Positions 4,359-28,737 of a DNA stretch of 34,172 nucleotides are shown here, piece by piece. Source of the DNA: Deltaproteobacteria bacterium (GTDB taxonomy: Bacteria; Bacillota; Desulfotomaculia; Desulfotomaculales; JAGUVT01); NCBI GenBank assembly GCA_020062745.1, contig JAGUVT010000015.1, forward strand, positions 1 to 34,172, written 5' to 3'. A program made the position numbers and the translations under genes. The notes below the pieces were generated by a model. It saw only the letters and a program-made list of their open reading frames with translations, was not told where the DNA came from and ran no database searches. How positions within the stretch are numbered: the first letter of the stretch is position 1; each line of letters opens with the position of its first letter.

Positions 4359-4420
4359 GAGCTTGCTTTAAAGTAGTTTTTCAGGACATTAATCATCCTT
4401 TAATTAAATAATGTTTTTGT

Positions 4421-4627
4421 CTGGGTGTCTTTGCCATGGAGGCAAAGGATAATAGGGAACCAGGTGTAAATCCTGGACGGTCTGGCCACTGTTAATGGGA
4501 AGTTGCTTATCAATATGCCACTGAGGGAAGGACCCGCGGGAAGGTCATAAGCCGGCGGTAAACCATGAGTCAGGAAACCTGCCCGGGCAATTGGTACGTG
4601 TGCAACTCCCAATGAGAGGATGGTACC
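4421..4627 (+). promoter_or_regulatory. cobalamin (B12) riboswitch aptamer
   Basis: The conserved core is directly readable. An AATAGGGAACCAGGTG block at 4451-4466 is followed by AAATCCTGGACGG at 4468-4480, then GCCACTG at 4517-4523, and the B12-box region GAGTCAGGAAACCTGCC at 4567-4583. The outer helix around GTCTTTGCC...GGCAAAGG (4427-4448) and a 3' hairpin closed by GGTAC/GTACC (about 4593-4626) carrying the candidate kissing loop are also visible. Binding of adenosylcobalamin or a related cobamide should favour the downstream terminator and turn the operon off. The first gene starts about 200 bases downstream, so control is most likely at transcription. Confidence 0.93.
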
Positions 4628-21895: not shown

Positions 21896-23308
21896 TCAAT
21901 TTCCTCTATTTTCTCCTGCTTCGCCTGAGGCCAGCACCTCCATGAAAACCTTCACGATTTCAGGGTCGAGCTGAGTTCCGGCAACTCTTTTCAATTCCTC
22001 GACGACCACTTCTTTGCTCAAAGCCTTCCTGTAGGCGCGATCGGAGGTCATCGCGTCGTAAAGGTCCGCCACGGCAATAATCCTCGCTCCCAACGGAATC
22101 TCCTCCCCTTTCAACCCGGCGGGGTAACCTTTTCCGTCATATCTTTCATGGTGGGCATAGATGAGGGGTTTGACCTTCCAGGGAAAGTTAATGCCGTTTA
22201 AGATTTTCAAGCTTAATTCAGGGTGCTTTTTTACCTTCCTCAACTCCTCCTCATCCAGCCTCCCGGGCTTATTGAGAATAGCCTCACGGATACCGATCTT
22301 CCCGATATCGTGGAGGACAGCCGCCACTTCGATACCTTCTATTTCTTTAGGGGATAGGCCCAGCCTTCTGGCTATGGCTACCGCATGTTTTGCCACGGCG
22401 TCGGAATGGCCTTTCGTATAAGGATCTTTTATCCCCAGAGCGGATACCAGTGCCCGGATGGTGCTGAGATAGCTTTCATGCAGGTTCCGGTACAGGCTGG
22501 CGTTTTCAATGGCAGACGCCGCCTCGTGGGCCATGGTGGAAAGGAGATTTAAGTCATCTTCCGCAAAAGGCTCGGAATCTTTTTTCCGGTTGAGGTTGAT
22601 CACACCGATGGTGCCCTTCCTGGTTTTCAGAGGGGCGCAGATGGAATTTACCCCTTCATACTTATTTCTGCCTTTAATTTTAACCAGTGGATTGTCCGCC
22701 TTTCCGCAAATAACCATAGGTTTGCCGCTCAGGGCCACTGTTCCGGCAATACCTTCCCCTATTTCAATCCTGGTTTTTCTGATAACATCTTCGTTTAAAC
22801 CGTGCGCCTTCTTTATAGTCAAGACTTTCTCTTCAGGGTTGAAAAGCATCAGGGAACCGTCTTCTGCCTTGAGGGTCTCGACAGCGCTCTTGAAAATCAA
22901 CGAAAGCACTTCATCCAGGTCAAGGGAGGAACCGGTCATCTTGACGGTCTCATGCAGGACGGTCATCTCGGTCAGTCTTTGACTCAATCTGATGTTCAGA
23001 TCCTTGATCTCGGCCAGGTAGCCGTCCGTCATGGAATTTAGATATTCCCTGTACGCCGTCCCATAGCTCATGATTCCTTCCATAAGAAAGGTGAAGGACT
23101 CATCAATAGCTTTCTTTGGATATACTTTTTTATCTTTATTGATTTTCTTTATGGCATTGAGGTGCATTTCAACAATCGATTCAGGACCTGTCCCCTGCTT
23201 CATCAGTTCCTTGCCGAACCCGGAGATCTGATAGAGATATGTCTCCCGGCCTGTATCCAGGTAAAGCGCGAGATTTTTTTCGTAGTCGAGACTTAGCTGC
23301 TCATCCAT
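21896..23308 (-). CDS. RsbU-N-like / GAF / HD-GYP cyclic-di-GMP phosphodiesterase
   Basis: A 470-residue protein in three parts. Residues 1-92 resemble the N-terminal domain of RsbU, the RsbT-binding domain: YLYQISGFGKEL, GPESIVEMHL and FLMEGIMSYGTAYREYL follow the RsbU pattern. Residues about 110-270 form a GAF domain. Residues about 285-465 form an HD-GYP domain with the metal pair H333-D334 (LHDIGKIG) and HHERYDGKGYP at 386-396, all intact, so hydrolysis of c-di-GMP is expected. GAGGTGG precedes ATG 23308. The gene lies on the same strand as the stressosome operon, separated from it by a decayed IS3 element. Control by an RsbT-type protein is inferred from the N-terminal domain. Confidence 0.9.
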   Translation of the reverse strand: MDEQLSLDYEKNLALYLDTGRETYLYQISGFGKELMKQGTGPESIVEMHLNAIKKINKDKKVYPKKAIDESFTFLMEGIMSYGTAYREYLNSMTDGYLAEIKDLNIRLSQRLTEMTVLHETVKMTGSSLDLDEVLSLIFKSAVETLKAEDGSLMLFNPEEKVLTIKKAHGLNEDVIRKTRIEIGEGIAGTVALSGKPMVICGKADNPLVKIKGRNKYEGVNSICAPLKTRKGTIGVINLNRKKDSEPFAEDDLNLLSTMAHEAASAIENASLYRNLHESYLSTIRALVSALGIKDPYTKGHSDAVAKHAVAIARRLGLSPKEIEGIEVAAVLHDIGKIGIREAILNKPGRLDEEELRKVKKHPELSLKILNGINFPWKVKPLIYAHHERYDGKGYPAGLKGEEIPLGARIIAVADLYDAMTSDRAYRKALSKEVVVEELKRVAGTQLDPEIVKVFMEVLASGEAGENRGN

Positions 23309-23719
23309 AAAGCCACCTCATTGAGCTGTCCCCGATAAAATAGCACACTAAACTGCATGATGCTTTGATTCTCACAGAATCTCATGAAATTACATAATAG
23401 TCACCTTGTTACTCCAACTCACACGACATGACCGGCAAGCCTTGACTCGCCGTAGGATATCGAATCCAGGGGGCGGGCGAGGGTGACGGTAGACGGTATC
23501 ATTGATTATCACGCCCGCCCCGGACAAGTTATTTTACCACGGCGGTCAAGGCCAAGCCGCTGACGCGGTTGCCGGCCATGTCTAAGCCAAGTGGTAAGGC
23601 GTAACCTTTAGAAAAAGGGGGTCAAGCTTAAGGCTCCGGCATCCGGTATCAACGAATAATCAGAGCTAACCTTAAGTGCTTTAGTGCGAATAGCACATCC
23701 CAGTTATAATATTACATTT
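23309..23719. other. intergenic region with strong inverted repeats, no gene
   Basis: No convincing coding frame. Close to the HD-GYP start is GATTCT-CAC-AGAATC (23367-23381), a possible operator. Further away are GGGGCGGGCG (23470-23479) with CGCCCGCCCC (23512-23521), and TTACCAC (23534-23540) with GTGGTAA (23591-23597) enclosing a second GC-rich pairing. The composition differs from the flanking genes, so this may be the relic of another mobile element or a structured RNA. Confidence 0.45.
23470..23597. repeat. two GC-rich stem-loop units, unknown
   Basis: Stem one has ten perfect pairs (23470-23479 with 23512-23521) and a 32-base loop. Stem two has seven outer pairs (23534-23540 with 23591-23597) and an inner GCCGC/GCGGT pairing around 23555-23569. 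No T-run follows either one. I do not recognise a known RNA family. Confidence 0.45.
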
Positions 23720-23735
23720 TGACCATAGATAACCA

Positions 23736-24500
23736 TCAAAGAAGGTTAATCATACCCTTAATACAGGTAAATTTGTCCGCCTTACTCCTGTTTATGCAAC
23801 CTTTGCCATTACTTTTTGCAAGTATTGACACTTGAATTCCCAAGGCGTCATGTATCCCAGGCTTCCAGTGACGACGCTGCCGGTTGTAATATACTTCAAT
23901 GTAATCAAAAATGGCCTGTTTGGCTTCATCCCGTGTTTTGAAGCGGCGCAAGTGAATAAGCTCATTTTTCAAGGTACTGAAAAAGCTCTCCGCAGGGGCA
24001 TTGTCATAACAATTCCCTTTACGGCTCATGCTCTGTATAAAACCGTTCTCACGAAGCAGGTCTTGATAGGCATAACTGGCATATTGAACCCCCCGGTCGA
24101 AAATGATGGATTAACCCTTTGGATGGGCGCTCACGGCCGATCGCCTGCTTTAAAGCCTGGATTACAAGCTCTTTAGGCATAATACTGTTCATAGCCATGC
24201 CAACTACATCTTTGCTATAAAGGTCAACAATGCTTGCCAGATGAAAGCCGGCCCTCATTGGTCGGGATGTAGCTGATGTCGCTTACCCACACAGTATTGG
24301 GGGCGGCAACCTTAAAGTTCTGGTTCAAAAGATTTTCCGCCACTGGGAAGTTGTGCTTGGAATTTGTAGTGGCTTTATACTTCCTGGGGCTTCACCGACT
24401 GAATACCATTTGCCTTCATGAGGCGGTGCACACGGTTTTTCCCGCATCCGAATTGATCTTTAACATCAGCATGTATCCGGCGCACTCCATATAATTTCCG
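23736..24500 (-). pseudogene. IS3-family orfB (DDE transposase), frameshifted
   Basis: The integrase-core reading frame is broken into several pieces. In order they show GVRRIHADVKDQFG, then VWVSDISYIPTNEG, then AGFHLASIVDLYSKDVVGMA, then FDRGVQYASYAYQDLL, then SRKGNCYDNAPAESFFSTLK and, in another frame, LGYMTPWEFKCQYL. The three acidic residues of the DDE site (SDIS, FDRG, AESF) can all be found, but at least four single-base shifts separate the pieces. One is an extra T in the run near 24112. Active transposition by this copy is unlikely. Confidence 0.85.
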
Positions 24501-24795
24501 GCTTTCGGGGGTTTGCAAAGATGGCCGCCGCCTTTTTTAGAATGGCATTCTCCTCACGCAAGTCCTGGTTTTCACGTTTCAACCGGCGAATTTCTTCTTC
24601 GTCCGGTCTCAGGCGGCCACTGCCCCGGAAAGAGTTCACCGGGTCGGCTGAAAACTCTTTGATCCATCGTAGGAGGGTATCATAACTGATACCAAGATCG
24701 GTTGCTACACTGCTTGTTTTCCGTCCTTTTTCCAGTACCATTTTAACAGCGCCAAGTTTAAAATCTTTGTCGTACCGTTTACCTGTTATTGCCAT
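24466..24795 (-). CDS. IS3-family orfA (helix-turn-helix) protein
   Basis: About 110 residues from ATG 24795, with AGGAGGTG upstream. The start MAITGKRYDKDFKLGAVKMV, the SVATDLGISYDTLLRWIKEF helix-turn-helix and a leucine-zipper end (LKRENQDLREENAILKKAAA) are typical of IS3 OrfA. Its last residues come from the overlap with orfB. It is apparently intact. Confidence 0.85.
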   Translation of the reverse strand: MAITGKRYDKDFKLGAVKMVLEKGRKTSSVATDLGISYDTLLRWIKEFSADPVNSFRGSGRLRPDEEEIRRLKRENQDLREENAILKKAAAIFANPRKPEIIWSAPDTC

Positions 24796-24844
24796 GATGG
24801 ACACCTCCTGCTGAATTATATTTTACTTCAGTTCTGTGTGTCCA

Positions 24845-26023
24845 TCAAACCGGGTACAAGGCACATTCATATAAGCAAACTCTATCTTTACCTTCCCCCT
24901 TGGCCCGGTATAAAGCTTCGTCCGCCTTTTTTACCAGGTCTGATTCGCCCATATCTTTCACAGAATAACCAGCAACCCCTGCACTCAGCGTTACCCTTAA
25001 ACGAACTGCGTCCACTTCAAACGTGTGACCTCTGATTTCATCCAGTACGCGAACAGCCGCGTTAACGGCCTGTTTCTTATCGGTATCCGGCATGAGGATG
25101 ACGAACTCATCGCCTCCGTATCTGGCCACTACATCCGTTTCCCGGACAATATCTTTGAGAATCCCGGTTATATTTTTGATAATTGCATCTCCAACAAGAT
25201 GTCCGTAACAATCGTTTATTTCTTTCAGATTGTCTATATCCATTATCATAAGAGAGAGCCTCTGCCGGTATCTCCTGGCCCGCTGAGTTTCTTTTGCCAG
25301 TATTTCATAGAAATGCCGCCTGTTAAAGACTCCAGTCAACCCGTCCGTTGTAGACTGTTCCTCCATGAGCTTATACAGCTTTAACCTTTCAAGCGCCAGG
25401 GCGAACTGGTTGGTTAGAATAGAAATCATCCGTTTCTCTACTTCATCCGGAGTAAAATCCTTTCTGCCGCCAAGCCTGACTTCTCCTGCCAGCACCTTGT
25501 CTATCTTCAAGGGAATGCGAACAGGAAAGTTTTCCCCTGCGTCTTTCTCCAAGTTCTTTGCCTGTATGGATCTGGCAACCACCAACTCCAACTCACCCGT
25601 TGCATTGTTTTTCAGGAATAAATATCCTTCCTCCATTTTTAGCAACTCGGCGGTCTTATCAACAATGTACCGGTATAAGGAATCCATGTCGAGAAAAGAA
25701 ATTAGTCTCATGCCTACTTCCTGCAAAAAGCTTAACCTCTTTAGTTCGACGTAATGCCCAAAGGCTATCTCATAAGGTGATATAACCTCCAGGAAAGCTC
25801 TGAATGTCCGGAAGACTGCCGCCGGCTGTGAGAGTAAAGAATCCTCAGCTAATATCTTCTCCAACGACTCGATGTGCAGGACCAGGATGTCCCCGGGGCC
25901 TAACCCTTCACCCATGAACGACTTGCTCAGTTCATAAAGCGTGTAGAGGCATTCTTCCCGGTTTTCCTTCAAGCACTGGAGCAATGCGGCCGCATACTCT
26001 TCACGTCTTTGATGATCGATCAT
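24845..26023 (-). CDS. RsbU-N-like / GAF / GGDEF diguanylate cyclase
   Basis: A 392-residue protein. Residues 1-92 are an RsbU-N-like domain (YTLYELSKSFM, GPGDILVLHIESL, SPYEIAFGHYVELK), a GAF domain spans about 100-215 and a GGDEF domain about 222-388. The active site GGDEF is at 303-307, and R294-D297 forms an RxxD I-site exactly five residues before it, so product inhibition is likely. Synthesis of c-di-GMP from GTP is expected. The gene starts one base after rsbX, with its GGAGA inside rsbX. The same domain order and position occur in the Moorella stressosome operon. The last few residues after the domain are at the IS boundary, so the native C-terminus may have been trimmed slightly. Confidence 0.93.
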   Translation of the reverse strand: MIDHQRREEYAAALLQCLKENREECLYTLYELSKSFMGEGLGPGDILVLHIESLEKILAEDSLLSQPAAVFRTFRAFLEVISPYEIAFGHYVELKRLSFLQEVGMRLISFLDMDSLYRYIVDKTAELLKMEEGYLFLKNNATGELELVVARSIQAKNLEKDAGENFPVRIPLKIDKVLAGEVRLGGRKDFTPDEVEKRMISILTNQFALALERLKLYKLMEEQSTTDGLTGVFNRRHFYEILAKETQRARRYRQRLSLMIMDIDNLKEINDCYGHLVGDAIIKNITGILKDIVRETDVVARYGGDEFVILMPDTDKKQAVNAAVRVLDEIRGHTFEVDAVRLRVTLSAGVAGYSVKDMGESDLVKKADEALYRAKGEGKDRVCLYECALYPV

Positions 26024-26024
26024 T

Positions 26025-26612
26025 TTAGTTCTCCATTTTGTCTTGCCGGGCCACTACAATGGTGAAGTCATCCCTTTCTCTGCAGAACTCGGCGGCAATT
26101 CTCTCAGCAATGGTCTGAGGATGCTGCCCCAGAAACTCCGGTGGAAAAAGGTTGAAATCAAACTTTCCGGATATGCCGTCCGAGTGGAGAATAATGAGAT
26201 CTCCCGGGTTGTAAGGGAATTCTTCCTCCTTTACCTTGCGGAGGTTATAGCCTAAGATACCGTTTACGGAAACCGGCCTGATTGTCGTCCGGCTCCTTAC
26301 TCTCGCCTCGATATTCCCAACGCCGGCATACCTCAATACGGAACGGTCCAGATCAATCAGCGCCAGTCCTATAGCTGCACCCCTGGTTTTTTTCAACTCC
26401 TCATGGCAGCCCTTGATAATTTCCGTAAGACTTTTCTCATAGTGGCTTTCCAGGTACTCCACAGCTCTGTTTGCGGCAACGGCGGCATCACTTCCATGAC
26501 CCAGGCCGTCTATCACGGCAATCAGTACTTTGTTCTCAAATTCCTTGATAAAATAGGCATCCCCACAGACTGTCTGCCCTTTTAACGCTTCATTAATCAC
26601 GCCAAACCGCAT
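26025..26612 (-). CDS. rsbX: RsbX-like PP2C phosphatase of the stressosome
   Basis: A 195-residue PPM/SpoIIE-type phosphatase. Metal-binding motifs are CGDAYF, IDGLGHGSDA, LHSDGISGKFD and the terminal RDDFTIVVA. RsbX resets the stressosome by removing phosphate from RsbS and RsbR after RsbT has acted. Its length fits RsbX, not the longer RsbU. It lies seven bases after the second rsbT-like gene. Confidence 0.92.
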   Translation of the reverse strand: MRFGVINEALKGQTVCGDAYFIKEFENKVLIAVIDGLGHGSDAAVAANRAVEYLESHYEKSLTEIIKGCHEELKKTRGAAIGLALIDLDRSVLRYAGVGNIEARVRSRTTIRPVSVNGILGYNLRKVKEEEFPYNPGDLIILHSDGISGKFDFNLFPPEFLGQHPQTIAERIAAEFCRERDDFTIVVARQDKMEN

Positions 26613-26619
26613 AACAACC

Positions 26620-27039
26620 TCACAGCCATTTTCTTACCCGTATCGTCGTTCCTTTTCCCGGCTCAGATTCTATCTCCAGTTCGTCCATCATCCTCTTTGC
26701 TCCCGACAGTCCTATTCCCAATGAGTCTTTGGTGGAATATCCATCTCTGAAAACCCGGGCAGTGTCCTCCAAACCCGGTCCCCGGTCGGCAAAAATAATC
26801 TCCAGCCCTCTTTTTTCTCCCGTAGAAATTCCCCTGAATGTCACCGTGCCCTTGCCGGCGTGGGCAAGGATATTCCTGGCCAGTTCTGAAACGGCGGTAA
26901 TGATGAGAGTTGTCCTCACCTCTTCGAATCCCATCAGACGGGCGTGCTCTGCTGCTGCCCGCCGGGCCACGCCCACATGGTATTCCTCTTCTATTTTTAG
27001 TATAATTTCCCTGTTCTTAATCTTCTTTATCTCAGCCAT
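26620..27039 (-). CDS. second RsbT-like GHKL switch kinase
   Basis: A 139-residue GHKL ATPase of the anti-sigma/RsbT family. The N-box is VSELARNI, the G1-type motif FADRGPGLED and the G2-type motif LGIGLSGAKRMMDELE. It is a clear paralogue of the gene just upstream (27027-27428) but differs in the stretch after the N-box (LAHAGKG in place of LYAGTG) and has a longer N-terminus. The canonical stressosome has only one RsbT. With two RsbU-N-type targets in the locus, each kinase may serve a different one; this is inference. Its start overlaps the previous gene by 13 bases. Confidence 0.9.
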   Translation of the reverse strand: MAEIKKIKNREIILKIEEEYHVGVARRAAAEHARLMGFEEVRTTLIITAVSELARNILAHAGKGTVTFRGISTGEKRGLEIIFADRGPGLEDTARVFRDGYSTKDSLGIGLSGAKRMMDELEIESEPGKGTTIRVRKWL

Positions 27040-27428
27040 TTTTTGATGGTCACTATAGTTCCCGCCCCCACCTTGCTCTTTATCTCGAACTCGTCCACAA
27101 GGCGCTTTGTTCCCGGAAGGCCCTGACCCAAACCCTTGCTTGTGCTGTAGCCGTCCTGCATAACCATTTCGATGTCCGGAATGCCGGGACCATTGTCCTC
27201 TGCCACAATCTCCATCCCTTTTCCGGAATCTCCTGACACAGCTTTAATAACCACCCTTCCCGTTCCGGCATACAGGTAGATGTTGCGGCTGAGTTCTGAG
27301 ACAGCCGTGGTGATGCGGGTCTGGTCCGCCAGGCCGAAACCAAGCTTTTTGGCCATTTCCCTGGCAACCTGACGGGCAAGGATAACATCCTCGCTGCTTT
27401 TTATGCTGGTTTCTTTAACCTCCTTCAT
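27027..27428 (-). CDS. rsbT: RsbT switch kinase
   Basis: A 133-residue RsbT. It closely follows the Bacillus pattern: DQTRITTAVSELSRNIYLYAG, the ATP-binding VAEDNGPGIPDIEMVMQDG and GLGQGLPGTKRLVDEF, ending VTIKKWLR. RsbT is held on the RsbR-RsbS complex, phosphorylates them under stress, is released, and then activates its RsbU-N-type partner. ATG 27428 (MKEVKETS) was chosen over the longer frame because it overlaps the end of rsbS by 14 bases and matches the family length. Confidence 0.93.
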   Translation of the reverse strand: MKEVKETSIKSSEDVILARQVAREMAKKLGFGLADQTRITTAVSELSRNIYLYAGTGRVVIKAVSGDSGKGMEIVAEDNGPGIPDIEMVMQDGYSTSKGLGQGLPGTKRLVDEFEIKSKVGAGTIVTIKKWLR

Positions 27429-27789
27429 GACCCACCTCACCCATGTTCTGCAGCAATTCCAGACCCTTTTCCAAGTTGAGGGCGGTATGGACACCTTTGA
27501 GTTCCAGCCCCATCTCCTGCAAGGTAATGGCTATATCTGGTTGAACGCCCACCAGCACGCTTTCAACACCCATGGTTCTGGCCATGACGGCCGTGTCGGA
27601 GATCATTCTTCCCATAAAGCTGTCAACCAGATTTACAGCGCTCACATCTATCACCAAACCCCGCGCCCTGGTTTCATAAATTTTCTTTAAAATATCCTCC
27701 TGAAGCCGGAACGCCATCTCATCGTGAAGTTCCACCTGAAGGGTGAGGATGAGGGTATCACCCATCTTTAATATCGGTACCCTCTCCAT
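27415..27789 (-). CDS. rsbS: RsbS stressosome scaffold (STAS)
   Basis: A 124-residue single STAS domain. The phosphoacceptor Ser57 is in NLVDSFMGRM, the position of Ser59 in Bacillus RsbS, followed by VGVQPDIAITLQEMG. It forms the core with RsbR and holds RsbT in the unstressed cell. GGAGGG sits about nine bases before ATG 27789, four bases after rsbR. Confidence 0.94.
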   Translation of the reverse strand: MERVPILKMGDTLILTLQVELHDEMAFRLQEDILKKIYETRARGLVIDVSAVNLVDSFMGRMISDTAVMARTMGVESVLVGVQPDIAITLQEMGLELKGVHTALNLEKGLELLQNMGEVGHEGG

Positions 27790-27793
27790 TTAC

Positions 27794-28657
27794 TTATCCC
27801 TCCGCCTTCGTTACTTTAAGCTTCAACTTTCTGAAGGCCAGCTCCAGTCCGTCCCGGAGACTTGCCCTGGTAACAAACCCCGACAGGTCAACCCCGAGGT
27901 GGACGATGGTTTGAGAAATCTGGGGGCTCAAACCGGTTAGAATACTTTCTGCGCCCATAAGCCTGGCTGCCTGCATGGTTCGCAGGAGCCTGCTTGCCAC
28001 CTCGGTGTCCACAGCAGGCACACCGGTGATGTCTATAATAACCATGGAAGACTTGGTGGTCACAATGCTCTCAAGGAGGCTCTCCATGATCTGCTTGGCC
28101 CTGGCGCTGTCAACGCTCCCGATGAGTGGTAAGATCAGGATCTCGTCCCAGACCTGAATCACGGGAGTCGAGAGTTCCAGCATAGATTTCTGCTGCTCCC
28201 TGATGACTTCTTCTCTTCCCTTCACATAGGCTTCAAATGTGACGATGGCCAGCTTGTCGAGGAGATCGGCGAATACAAGTCCCGCATTGACAAGCGTGTC
28301 CAACCGGTCATCGAATTCCTTCTGTAGGATCCTGATAAAGATTTGTCTGAGCGAGAGTATGAAGTTCGTCGTTTCTGACGGCGAAAAACCAATGGACGCC
28401 CTGGATGTGGAGAGGTCAGCCAGAGACTTGTTGATCTCATCGTACTCCGGCGCGGTTATGTCCTCCAAGTTTCCACCTGCTACAGCCTTAACTAGAAGTT
28501 TTAAGAACCGGCTCGACTCCTCCTCCAGTTGTTTTGCTGTAATCAACCCTTTTTGGAAGGCCGGGAGGTCCGCTTGCGCCTTTATCCAGGCGTCCAATAT
28601 CTCCTTTTCTTTCTTTACCAGTACTCCTGAAATGTTTGAGACCTCTTTTTTCGCCAT
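27794..28657 (-). CDS. rsbR: RsbR stressosome sensor (RsbRD-N-like plus STAS)
   Basis: A 287-residue RsbR. The N-terminal half (about 1-155) is helical and starts KKEKEILDAWIKAQ, resembling the RsbRD N-terminal sensor domain rather than a globin-type RsbRA domain; the signal is unknown. The C-terminal STAS domain keeps both phosphoacceptor threonines: T218 in PAVDTEVASR and T250 in QISQTIVHLG. ATG 28657 was chosen over 28708 because of GGAGG seven bases upstream. First gene of the operon, behind the promoter at 28738-28766. Confidence 0.93.
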   Translation of the reverse strand: MAKKEVSNISGVLVKKEKEILDAWIKAQADLPAFQKGLITAKQLEEESSRFLKLLVKAVAGGNLEDITAPEYDEINKSLADLSTSRASIGFSPSETTNFILSLRQIFIRILQKEFDDRLDTLVNAGLVFADLLDKLAIVTFEAYVKGREEVIREQQKSMLELSTPVIQVWDEILILPLIGSVDSARAKQIMESLLESIVTTKSSMVIIDITGVPAVDTEVASRLLRTMQAARLMGAESILTGLSPQISQTIVHLGVDLSGFVTRASLRDGLELAFRKLKLKVTKAEG

Positions 28658-28737
28658 TTTCCTTCCTCCTGTCATAGACCTGGTCTGCAATTTTTCATAA
28701 TCCGACAAATTTATAGTTTTTTATACAATATAGTTAT

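Follow-up and report, generated by a model that had tools for sequence, protein, structure and literature searches.

In Bacillus, RsbT phosphorylates RsbR and RsbS under stress and is then released. In Moorella thermoacetica, a stressosome associated with a RsbU_N-GAF-GGDEF protein was reportedly described by Quin et al. in 2012. Here, we analyzed a stretch of 34,172 nucleotides (the whole of which is hereafter called the window) corresponding to positions 1 to 34,172 of contig JAGUVT010000015.1, from a genome deposited as Deltaproteobacteria bacterium (assembly GCA_020062745.1). Between positions 21896 and 28657, its minus strand carries in this order rsbR, rsbS, rsbT1, rsbT2, rsbX, a RsbU_N-GGDEF gene and a RsbU_N-GAF-HD-GYP gene. 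We consider it likely that this locus encodes a stressosome that has the turnover of cyclic di-GMP (c-di-GMP) as output in place of sigma-B, a phosphodiesterase being the direct output shared by related loci and RsbT being duplicated.

The locus resembles the RsbRST-RsbU-sigma-B system of Bacillus subtilis in having RsbU_N domains, RsbT and core proteins with phospho-acceptor residues. However, the B. subtilis output involves the phosphatase RsbU and sigma-B, whereas the locus from the window encodes c-di-GMP enzymes. In the SiaABCD system of Pseudomonas aeruginosa, Ser/Thr partner-switching proteins govern a cyclase, as may be the case here, but to our knowledge this system has no stressosome core, RsbU_N or HD-GYP partner. 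In Moorella, a cyclase is under the control of RsbU_N and RsbT according to the accessible part of the source, which also proposes an exchangeable linker module serving phosphatases, kinases and cyclases (PMC12143880); the word 'phosphodiesterase' is absent from its main text. M. thermoacetica has, like the window, stressosome genes with a RsbU_N-GAF-GGDEF cyclase, but the accessible parts of the sources describe no HD-GYP output, second RsbT or stand-alone RsbU_N protein (PMC12143880, PMC4976288). In Gram-negative bacteria carrying RSTX modules (Vibrio vulnificus and others), the stressosome was likewise proposed to control c-di-GMP (PMC9237108, PMC10014275), and the Vibrio two-component output to degrade it (PMC10014275). 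However, in the accessible text, this output is a two-component pair without detected RsbU_N (PMC9237108, PMC10014275). Eleven downstream architectures were reported, with a legend naming RsbU_N, GGDEF, EAL and HDc, and a RsbU_N-HDc combination is possible among them (PMC9237108). RsbU_N-GGDEF outputs are already known from Moorella; no description of RsbU_N fused to HD-GYP was met in the literature searched, which was mostly open-access and did not include the 2005 and 2017 stressosome surveys.

Output enzymes with a predicted RsbT-docking domain

The c-di-GMP phosphodiesterase gene (21896..23308, minus strand) encodes a RsbU_N-GAF-HD-GYP protein of 470 residues (HD_5, 1.7e-37; GAF_2, 9.8e-17). 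The diguanylate cyclase gene (24845..26023, minus strand) encodes a protein of 392 residues having RsbU_N, reduced GAF-like and GGDEF (6.8e-45) domains. An earlier interpretation of the letters alone (hereafter the sequence-only reading) had placed a RsbU-N-like domain at the start of both enzymes and a GAF domain in each. The first proposal proved correct: Pfam RsbU_N (PF08673) matches residues 8-85 of the HD-GYP protein (1.1e-15, 58.0 bits) and residues 8-87 of the cyclase (5.9e-10, 39.6 bits), both above the Pfam cut-off of 25.5 bits. The second holds for the HD-GYP protein but not for the cyclase: none of the Pfam GAF families matches it at E values of up to 1, and its model contains an alpha/beta domain that resembles a reduced GAF. 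In the genome search, the RsbU_N domains of the phosphodiesterase (23054..23287, minus strand) and of the cyclase (25763..26002, minus strand) scored 61.2 and 42.7 bits, respectively. They are the only two RsbU_N matches (Pfam, E up to 0.1) of this genome (2.69 Mb, 99.65% complete), in which the same search found no RsbU_N phosphatase.

A profile built from the HD-GYP protein and its relatives (RsbU_N-bearing and HD-GYP relatives) retrieved the solved N-terminal domain of RsbU (E ~1e-17), and the N-terminal domain of the window HD-GYP protein alone matched PDB chains of this RsbU domain (1w53) from 9.3e-6. E24 and Y28 of B. subtilis RsbU are implicated in RsbT binding, according to the accessible text of PMC12143880. 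Among 25 RsbU_N domains of types other than histidine kinases, E24, L27 and Y28 are retained in all (25/25), including both window proteins. Y28 is not universal in the RsbU_N family, since four histidine-kinase types (G547, G583, G573 and G536) have, by eye, no Tyr at this position. At the second contact helix, the HD-GYP protein has the usual residues (M74, M78, G81). In AlphaFold models (mean pLDDT, the predicted local distance difference test score, of 85.4 for each protein), the domain has four helices, the fourth continuing into the linker and spanning residues 65-127 in the HD-GYP protein versus 67-107 in the cyclase. Both output enzymes carry a predicted RsbT-docking RsbU_N domain with the contact residues E24 and Y28.

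Furthermore, both catalytic signatures are intact and the corresponding activities are predicted. The cyclase has the GGDEF motif and, five residues ahead, the RxxD I-site (RETD-VVARY-GGDEF), and the HD-GYP protein has HDIGKIGI at 333, HHERYDGKGYP at 386 and further HD-GYP motifs. Residues 106-470 of its model align with PmGH (PDB 4mcw, presumably from Persephonella marina; Z 29.0, root mean square deviation 4.0, 353 aligned residues). However, PmGH has no RsbU_N, and the Glu that we take to be its third-metal ligand aligns with a Tyr of the window protein. The Gly of 'ALGIKD' in the window protein (Glu in the other four) had been considered as a lost metal ligand; this was dropped since the PmGH alignment places the Glu elsewhere.

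Stressosome core and the two RsbT genes

All genes of the core lie on the minus strand. rsbR (27794..28657) starts with an ATG at 28657, an additional in-frame TTG being found at 28708, and encodes a RsbRD_N sensor domain (1.1e-21) and a STAS domain (3.6e-16). An alignment with Bacillus-type RsbR indicates that both of the Thr positions that we take to be phosphorylated in the STAS domain are retained. The STAS scaffold encoded by rsbS (27415..27789; Pfam STAS, 1.8e-12) retains, in an alignment with the Bacillus-type operon, the Ser within DSF, which we assume to be its phosphorylation site. The switch kinase gene rsbT1 (27027..27428; HATPase_c, 1.7e-11) overlaps rsbS, its start being inferred from an in-frame ATG. 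It is overlapped by rsbT2 (26620..27039; HATPase_c_2, 3e-12), which encodes a second, divergent switch kinase, and rsbX (26025..26612; PP2C-type feedback phosphatase, Pfam SpoIIE, 5.4e-15) and the cyclase gene come next within a few bases. These adjacent genes and the phospho-acceptor sites point to a RsbR-RsbS-RsbT-RsbX stressosome module, whose assembly and release are presumed from the genes.

The T1 and T2 proteins of the four loci described below fall in separate clades of the RsbT tree (support 97/97 and 100/100, respectively), T1 being placed among the single RsbT proteins of relatives. Trees rebuilt with other rows gave similar support (98/98 or 91/93 for T1; 100/99 or 100/91 for T2), the placement of T2 among RsbT proteins being uncertain. 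T2 retains E45, N49, D78, G80 and G82, which we take to be ATP-site residues. The Asp at position 14 is replaced by His in 4/4 T2 proteins and that at position 92 by Gly in 3/4, the window being the exception. Loss of Arg23 was rejected as a hallmark of T2, being found in only 2/4. In T2 from G900 (L165:3460-3930), a Pro- and Gly-rich segment of 18 residues is inserted in frame. A T2-clade gene is found in 4/4 HD-GYP loci and in 0/16 cyclase-only loci with a visible rsbT (Fisher p 2e-4 with loci treated as independent, an overstated value because the four HD-GYP loci descend from one event).

Additional RsbT-like sequences were found elsewhere. G547 and G583 encode a protein of 333 residues (L158:7964-8965 and L159:1147-2148) that joins another RsbT-like domain to RsbX, its gene lying between rsbT and that of a single RsbU_N-PAS-kinase-receiver output. 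In G188, an additional divergent RsbT accompanies the cyclase, its only RsbU_N output.

Distribution of RsbU_N outputs and comparison of four loci

RsbU_N was searched (Pfam, E up to 0.001) in overlapping samples: the order of the window genome (113 genomes, 7 with a match; the class search gave the same 113 and 7), a phylum sample (398, 20 with a match including the window genome), another order (13, 6 with a match), the genomes behind named loci (8, none with a match), the phylum of the genome carrying locus L098 (395 drawn, 6 with a match), one class (4, 2 with a match, both known already) and the class of G687 (155, 2 with a match). This gave 35 distinct genomes, and the counts below hold for the sampled genomes. 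Locus inspection found RsbU_N-GGDEF and no RsbU_N-HD-GYP in 17 of them. Four (the window genome, G027, G687 and G900) encode RsbU_N-GAF-HD-GYP, the window genome having the cyclase in addition. In six, the protein is RsbU-like, is 333-344 residues long and was classed as a phosphatase on the basis of its end and, for L104, of the rsb neighbourhood. Five encode RsbU_N-kinases, histidine kinases by eye, one of which (G536) is under the Pfam cut-off, and three have incomplete or ambiguous matches (G159 and G231, both under the cut-off, and G892). In 15/17 cyclase-only genomes, the genes R-S-T-X are followed by a RsbU_N-GAF-GGDEF-type cyclase; G144, the 17th of these genomes, shows no rsb genes within the 12 kb inspected.

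Genes encoding HD_5 and GAF domains without RsbU_N are located directly after the cyclase gene in G020 (L021) and before rsbR in G021 and G024 (L019, L020), and two HD-domain genes, identified solely from their resemblance to the HD-GYP domain of the window, follow the cyclase gene in G125 (L123). Therefore, the linkage of likely breakdown enzymes to cyclase-type loci recurs with other sensor domains. Locus L130 (5278-11268) encodes, by eye, a stressosome, a RsbU_N-histidine kinase, a receiver, a receiver-PAS-HD-GYP protein with a RsbT-like ATPase end and a STAS-like protein. Among the best 80 of 493 relatives of the HD-GYP catalytic domain (own profile, E up to 0.01), none has RsbU_N, which has little bearing on the rarity of RsbU_N-HD-GYP. 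A tblastn search of the N-terminal 127 residues of the HD-GYP protein against plasmids gave no match.

R-S-T1-T2-X adjoins one RsbU_N-HD-GYP gene in 4/4 genomes having that protein. RsbR, RsbS, T1, T2, X and the HD-GYP protein are 68-91% identical between these genomes. Ratios of nonsynonymous to synonymous substitution rates (dN/dS) are 0.07-0.31 across the locus genes, with synonymous sites near saturation in several pairs; the values for T2 (0.13-0.20 in six pairs) and HD-GYP (0.11-0.20) point to constraint. Since T2 and the HD-GYP enzyme are found together in all four loci, they form a shared unit. G687 also has an orphan second RsbU_N-GAF-HD-GYP gene (L157:3341-4723). Its product begins with residues similar to the N terminus of the stand-alone RsbU_N proteins described below, which suggests recombination between tandem copies.

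The slot between rsbX and the HD-GYP gene contains an intact cyclase gene in the window only (1/4 loci). In G687, it holds a remnant of the same cyclase (identity of 32/47 N-terminal residues, i.e. 68%, and 16/20 C-terminal residues), whose end overlaps the start region of the HD-GYP gene. This identity is just under that of the other locus genes between the window and G687 (70-82%), and therefore no marked speed-up preceded the deletion. In G027 and G900, the cyclase is replaced by a stand-alone RsbU_N protein of ~100 residues (L022:4600-4911 and L165:4666-4974; 71% identical over 101 residues; Pfam scores of 76.8 and 79.6 bits; no ratio given because of dS saturation). The 33% identity between the cyclase and the G027 stand-alone protein had been considered as rapid decay of the cyclase; this was rejected, the G687 remnant showing that they are different genes. 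The stand-alone proteins branch beside the RsbU_N of the HD-GYP proteins in the RsbU_N tree (91/91), and the RsbU_N of the window cyclase has a very long branch (2.82) and an unsure placement. This tree and the residue table do not contain the G223 and G497 cyclases, the histidine-kinase types or the partial G159, G231 and G892 proteins; the full-length G185 cyclase (L126), which has a masked run, was left out of the model's alignment.

Joined genes group the window with G027 versus G687 with G900 (39 informative sites versus 18 and 8 for the other groupings; 500/500 resamplings), whereas RsbS alone leans towards the window with G687 (2 sites versus 0 and 0), as does T1 alone (3 versus 2 and 1). 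G687 and G900 apparently belong to a phylum other than that of the window genome. Slot content cuts across the joined-gene grouping and, therefore, the cyclase and the stand-alone RsbU_N protein may both have been present in the ancestor of the four loci and then lost separately. Exchange is an alternative account of the slot contents. Judging by the remnant, the dual wiring with a cyclase was present in an ancestor of G687.

Gene content, domains, catalytic motifs, conservation of the RsbT-contact residues and co-occurrence are direct observations, and they refine the sequence-only reading in several respects. The order of rsbR, rsbS, rsbT, an extra rsbT-like gene, rsbX and two output genes is as it had proposed, as are the coordinates. 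Since each of the four genomes has RsbU_N-HD-GYP beside stressosome genes, the linkage is found again in relatives. However, the two output genes are not contiguous, ~1.5 kb containing a decayed insertion sequence (IS) having gone unmentioned. The idea that one sensor complex sets both sides of c-di-GMP turnover fits the window genome but does not extend to the other loci, the cyclase being intact in one of four. The second RsbT, which had been listed without a role, is the gene shared with the HD-GYP gene across the four loci. Hence, what the four loci have in common is a stressosome whose predicted output is a c-di-GMP phosphodiesterase and whose RsbT is duplicated, not paired synthesis and breakdown.

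Sigma factors, spacer and other features of the window

The SigBFG model gave 12 matches in the genome, two of which are above the cut-off and neither of which is sigB. One, which we take to be sigF, lies in a STAS-HATPase-sigma operon (spoIIA-like) and the other, sigG-like, beside a sigE-like gene, these names being our assumption from sporulation gene order. Sigma-B was thus not found in the genome by this model, the ten weaker matches not being individually inspected and RsbV and RsbW not being searched. The earlier claim that sigma-B, RsbV and RsbW are missing nearby therefore stands for sigma-B.

The spacer between the output genes (23309..24844, minus strand) carries a decayed transposase, which we take to be of the IS3 family, with orfA at 24466-24804 and the end of orfB at 23736-24029 (HTH_Tnp_1, 2.2e-16; rve_2, 2.3e-14), in the same orientation as the output genes. 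Neither inverted repeats of the IS nor, in 23309-24844, a terminator-like site was found. No origin was assigned to the segment 23310-23735 beside the IS remnant. Elsewhere in the window, a cobalamin riboswitch is located at 4406-4600 (103.8 bits).

Proposed mechanism and rival explanations

RsbT binding, the direction of the activity change and the physiological role are what we infer. As in Bacillus, RsbT would phosphorylate RsbR and RsbS under stress and leave the core. By analogy with what was shown for RsbU, free RsbT would dock on the four-helix RsbU_N dimer and the next helix of the output enzymes, and this docking would order the linker helix into a coiled coil, switching the attached enzyme. 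The HD-GYP phosphodiesterase would be the common direct output and, in the window genome, the GGDEF cyclase with its own RsbU_N would be a second one. T2 would most simply be a second, partly insulated channel, and its partner may be the phosphodiesterase, the cyclase or RsbX. A broader scheme is doubtful as a whole: two paralogous kinases and up to three RsbU_N receivers would set c-di-GMP up or down from one core, the stand-alone RsbU_N protein would be a RsbT buffer or heterodimer partner, and receivers would have been gained and lost independently in apparently different phyla.

Several points weigh against the stressosome-phosphodiesterase reading. The contact helix of the window cyclase (S78, P79, E81) is unlike those of all 24 other domains compared. 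The structure-search matches mainly cover residues 106-460 and 96-389, beyond RsbU_N; those listed correspond to GAF, HD-GYP and GGDEF entries and name no RsbU_N entry. No stressosome genes accompany the orphan HD-GYP gene of G687, a fifth copy, within the 11 kb inspected. In the window, an insertion lies between the cyclase and HD-GYP genes, and expression of the HD-GYP gene is uncertain. Moreover, a single RsbT activating both enzymes simultaneously would create a futile cycle.

The role of T2 may be viewed in two other ways. T1 could act on the cyclase or the stand-alone RsbU_N and T2 on the phosphodiesterase, making synthesis and breakdown adjustable separately. This is a reasonable possibility, although we do not favour it: it agrees with the restriction of T2 to the HD-GYP loci and with stems that are long for T2 and the HD-GYP RsbU_N (1.17 and 1.29) and short for T1 and the stand-alone RsbU_N (0.36 and 0.43), rebuilt trees giving 1.1 or 0.75 for T2 and 0.38 or 0.32 for T1. 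However, the four loci represent one event, which makes the p-value too strong, G188 combines an extra divergent RsbT with the cyclase only, and the highly divergent RsbU_N of the window cyclase could itself be the partner of T2. Furthermore, the presence of two RsbT does not imply two outputs, because G547 and G583 have the RsbT-like-RsbX fusion and one histidine-kinase output. The same fusion, found in the same slot, and the position of T2 immediately before rsbX in 4/4 loci would fit a T2 that is a RsbX adaptor or a RsbT antagonist resetting the core with RsbX, T1 alone driving both outputs. This appears unlikely, since the fused domain is not recovered as the sister of T2 in the trees and the cyclase-only loci, 15 of which show rsbX, have no T2-clade gene.

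Other explanations question the outputs themselves. The locus could be in decay, duplication and loss leaving the phosphodiesterase as the only output and the window cyclase being on its way out. The cyclase is reduced to 47 N-terminal and ~20 C-terminal residues in G687 and absent from the slot of G027 and G900; in the window, it has a shorter linker than the other aligned cyclases, a fourth helix that falls 22 residues short of the HD-GYP one and a reduced GAF domain, and an IS is inserted between the output genes. However, its GGDEF motif and I-site are intact and the G687 remnant indicates no marked speed-up ahead of deletion, which leaves decay rather improbable. It is still harder to view the genes as coincidental neighbours whose RsbU_N no longer binds RsbT, the enzymes answering only to their GAF domains. 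The altered contact helix of the window cyclase and the purely predicted nature of RsbT-RsbU_N binding would allow this, but E24 and Y28 are retained, the linkage is found in 4/4 genomes and the stand-alone RsbU_N proteins are 71% identical between two genomes. A stressosome having the phosphodiesterase as shared direct output thus appears to us the likely reading.

Significance

The output of stressosomes would be extended to the destruction of c-di-GMP through a direct, predicted RsbT receiver. Moreover, different genomes attach the RsbU_N docking domain to different enzymes (phosphatase, cyclase, histidine kinase or phosphodiesterase), which offers a natural test of the proposal that this domain and its helical linker form an exchangeable switch module. 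Finally, the duplicated RsbT and the stand-alone RsbU_N proteins make the specificity between the stressosome core and its receivers directly testable.

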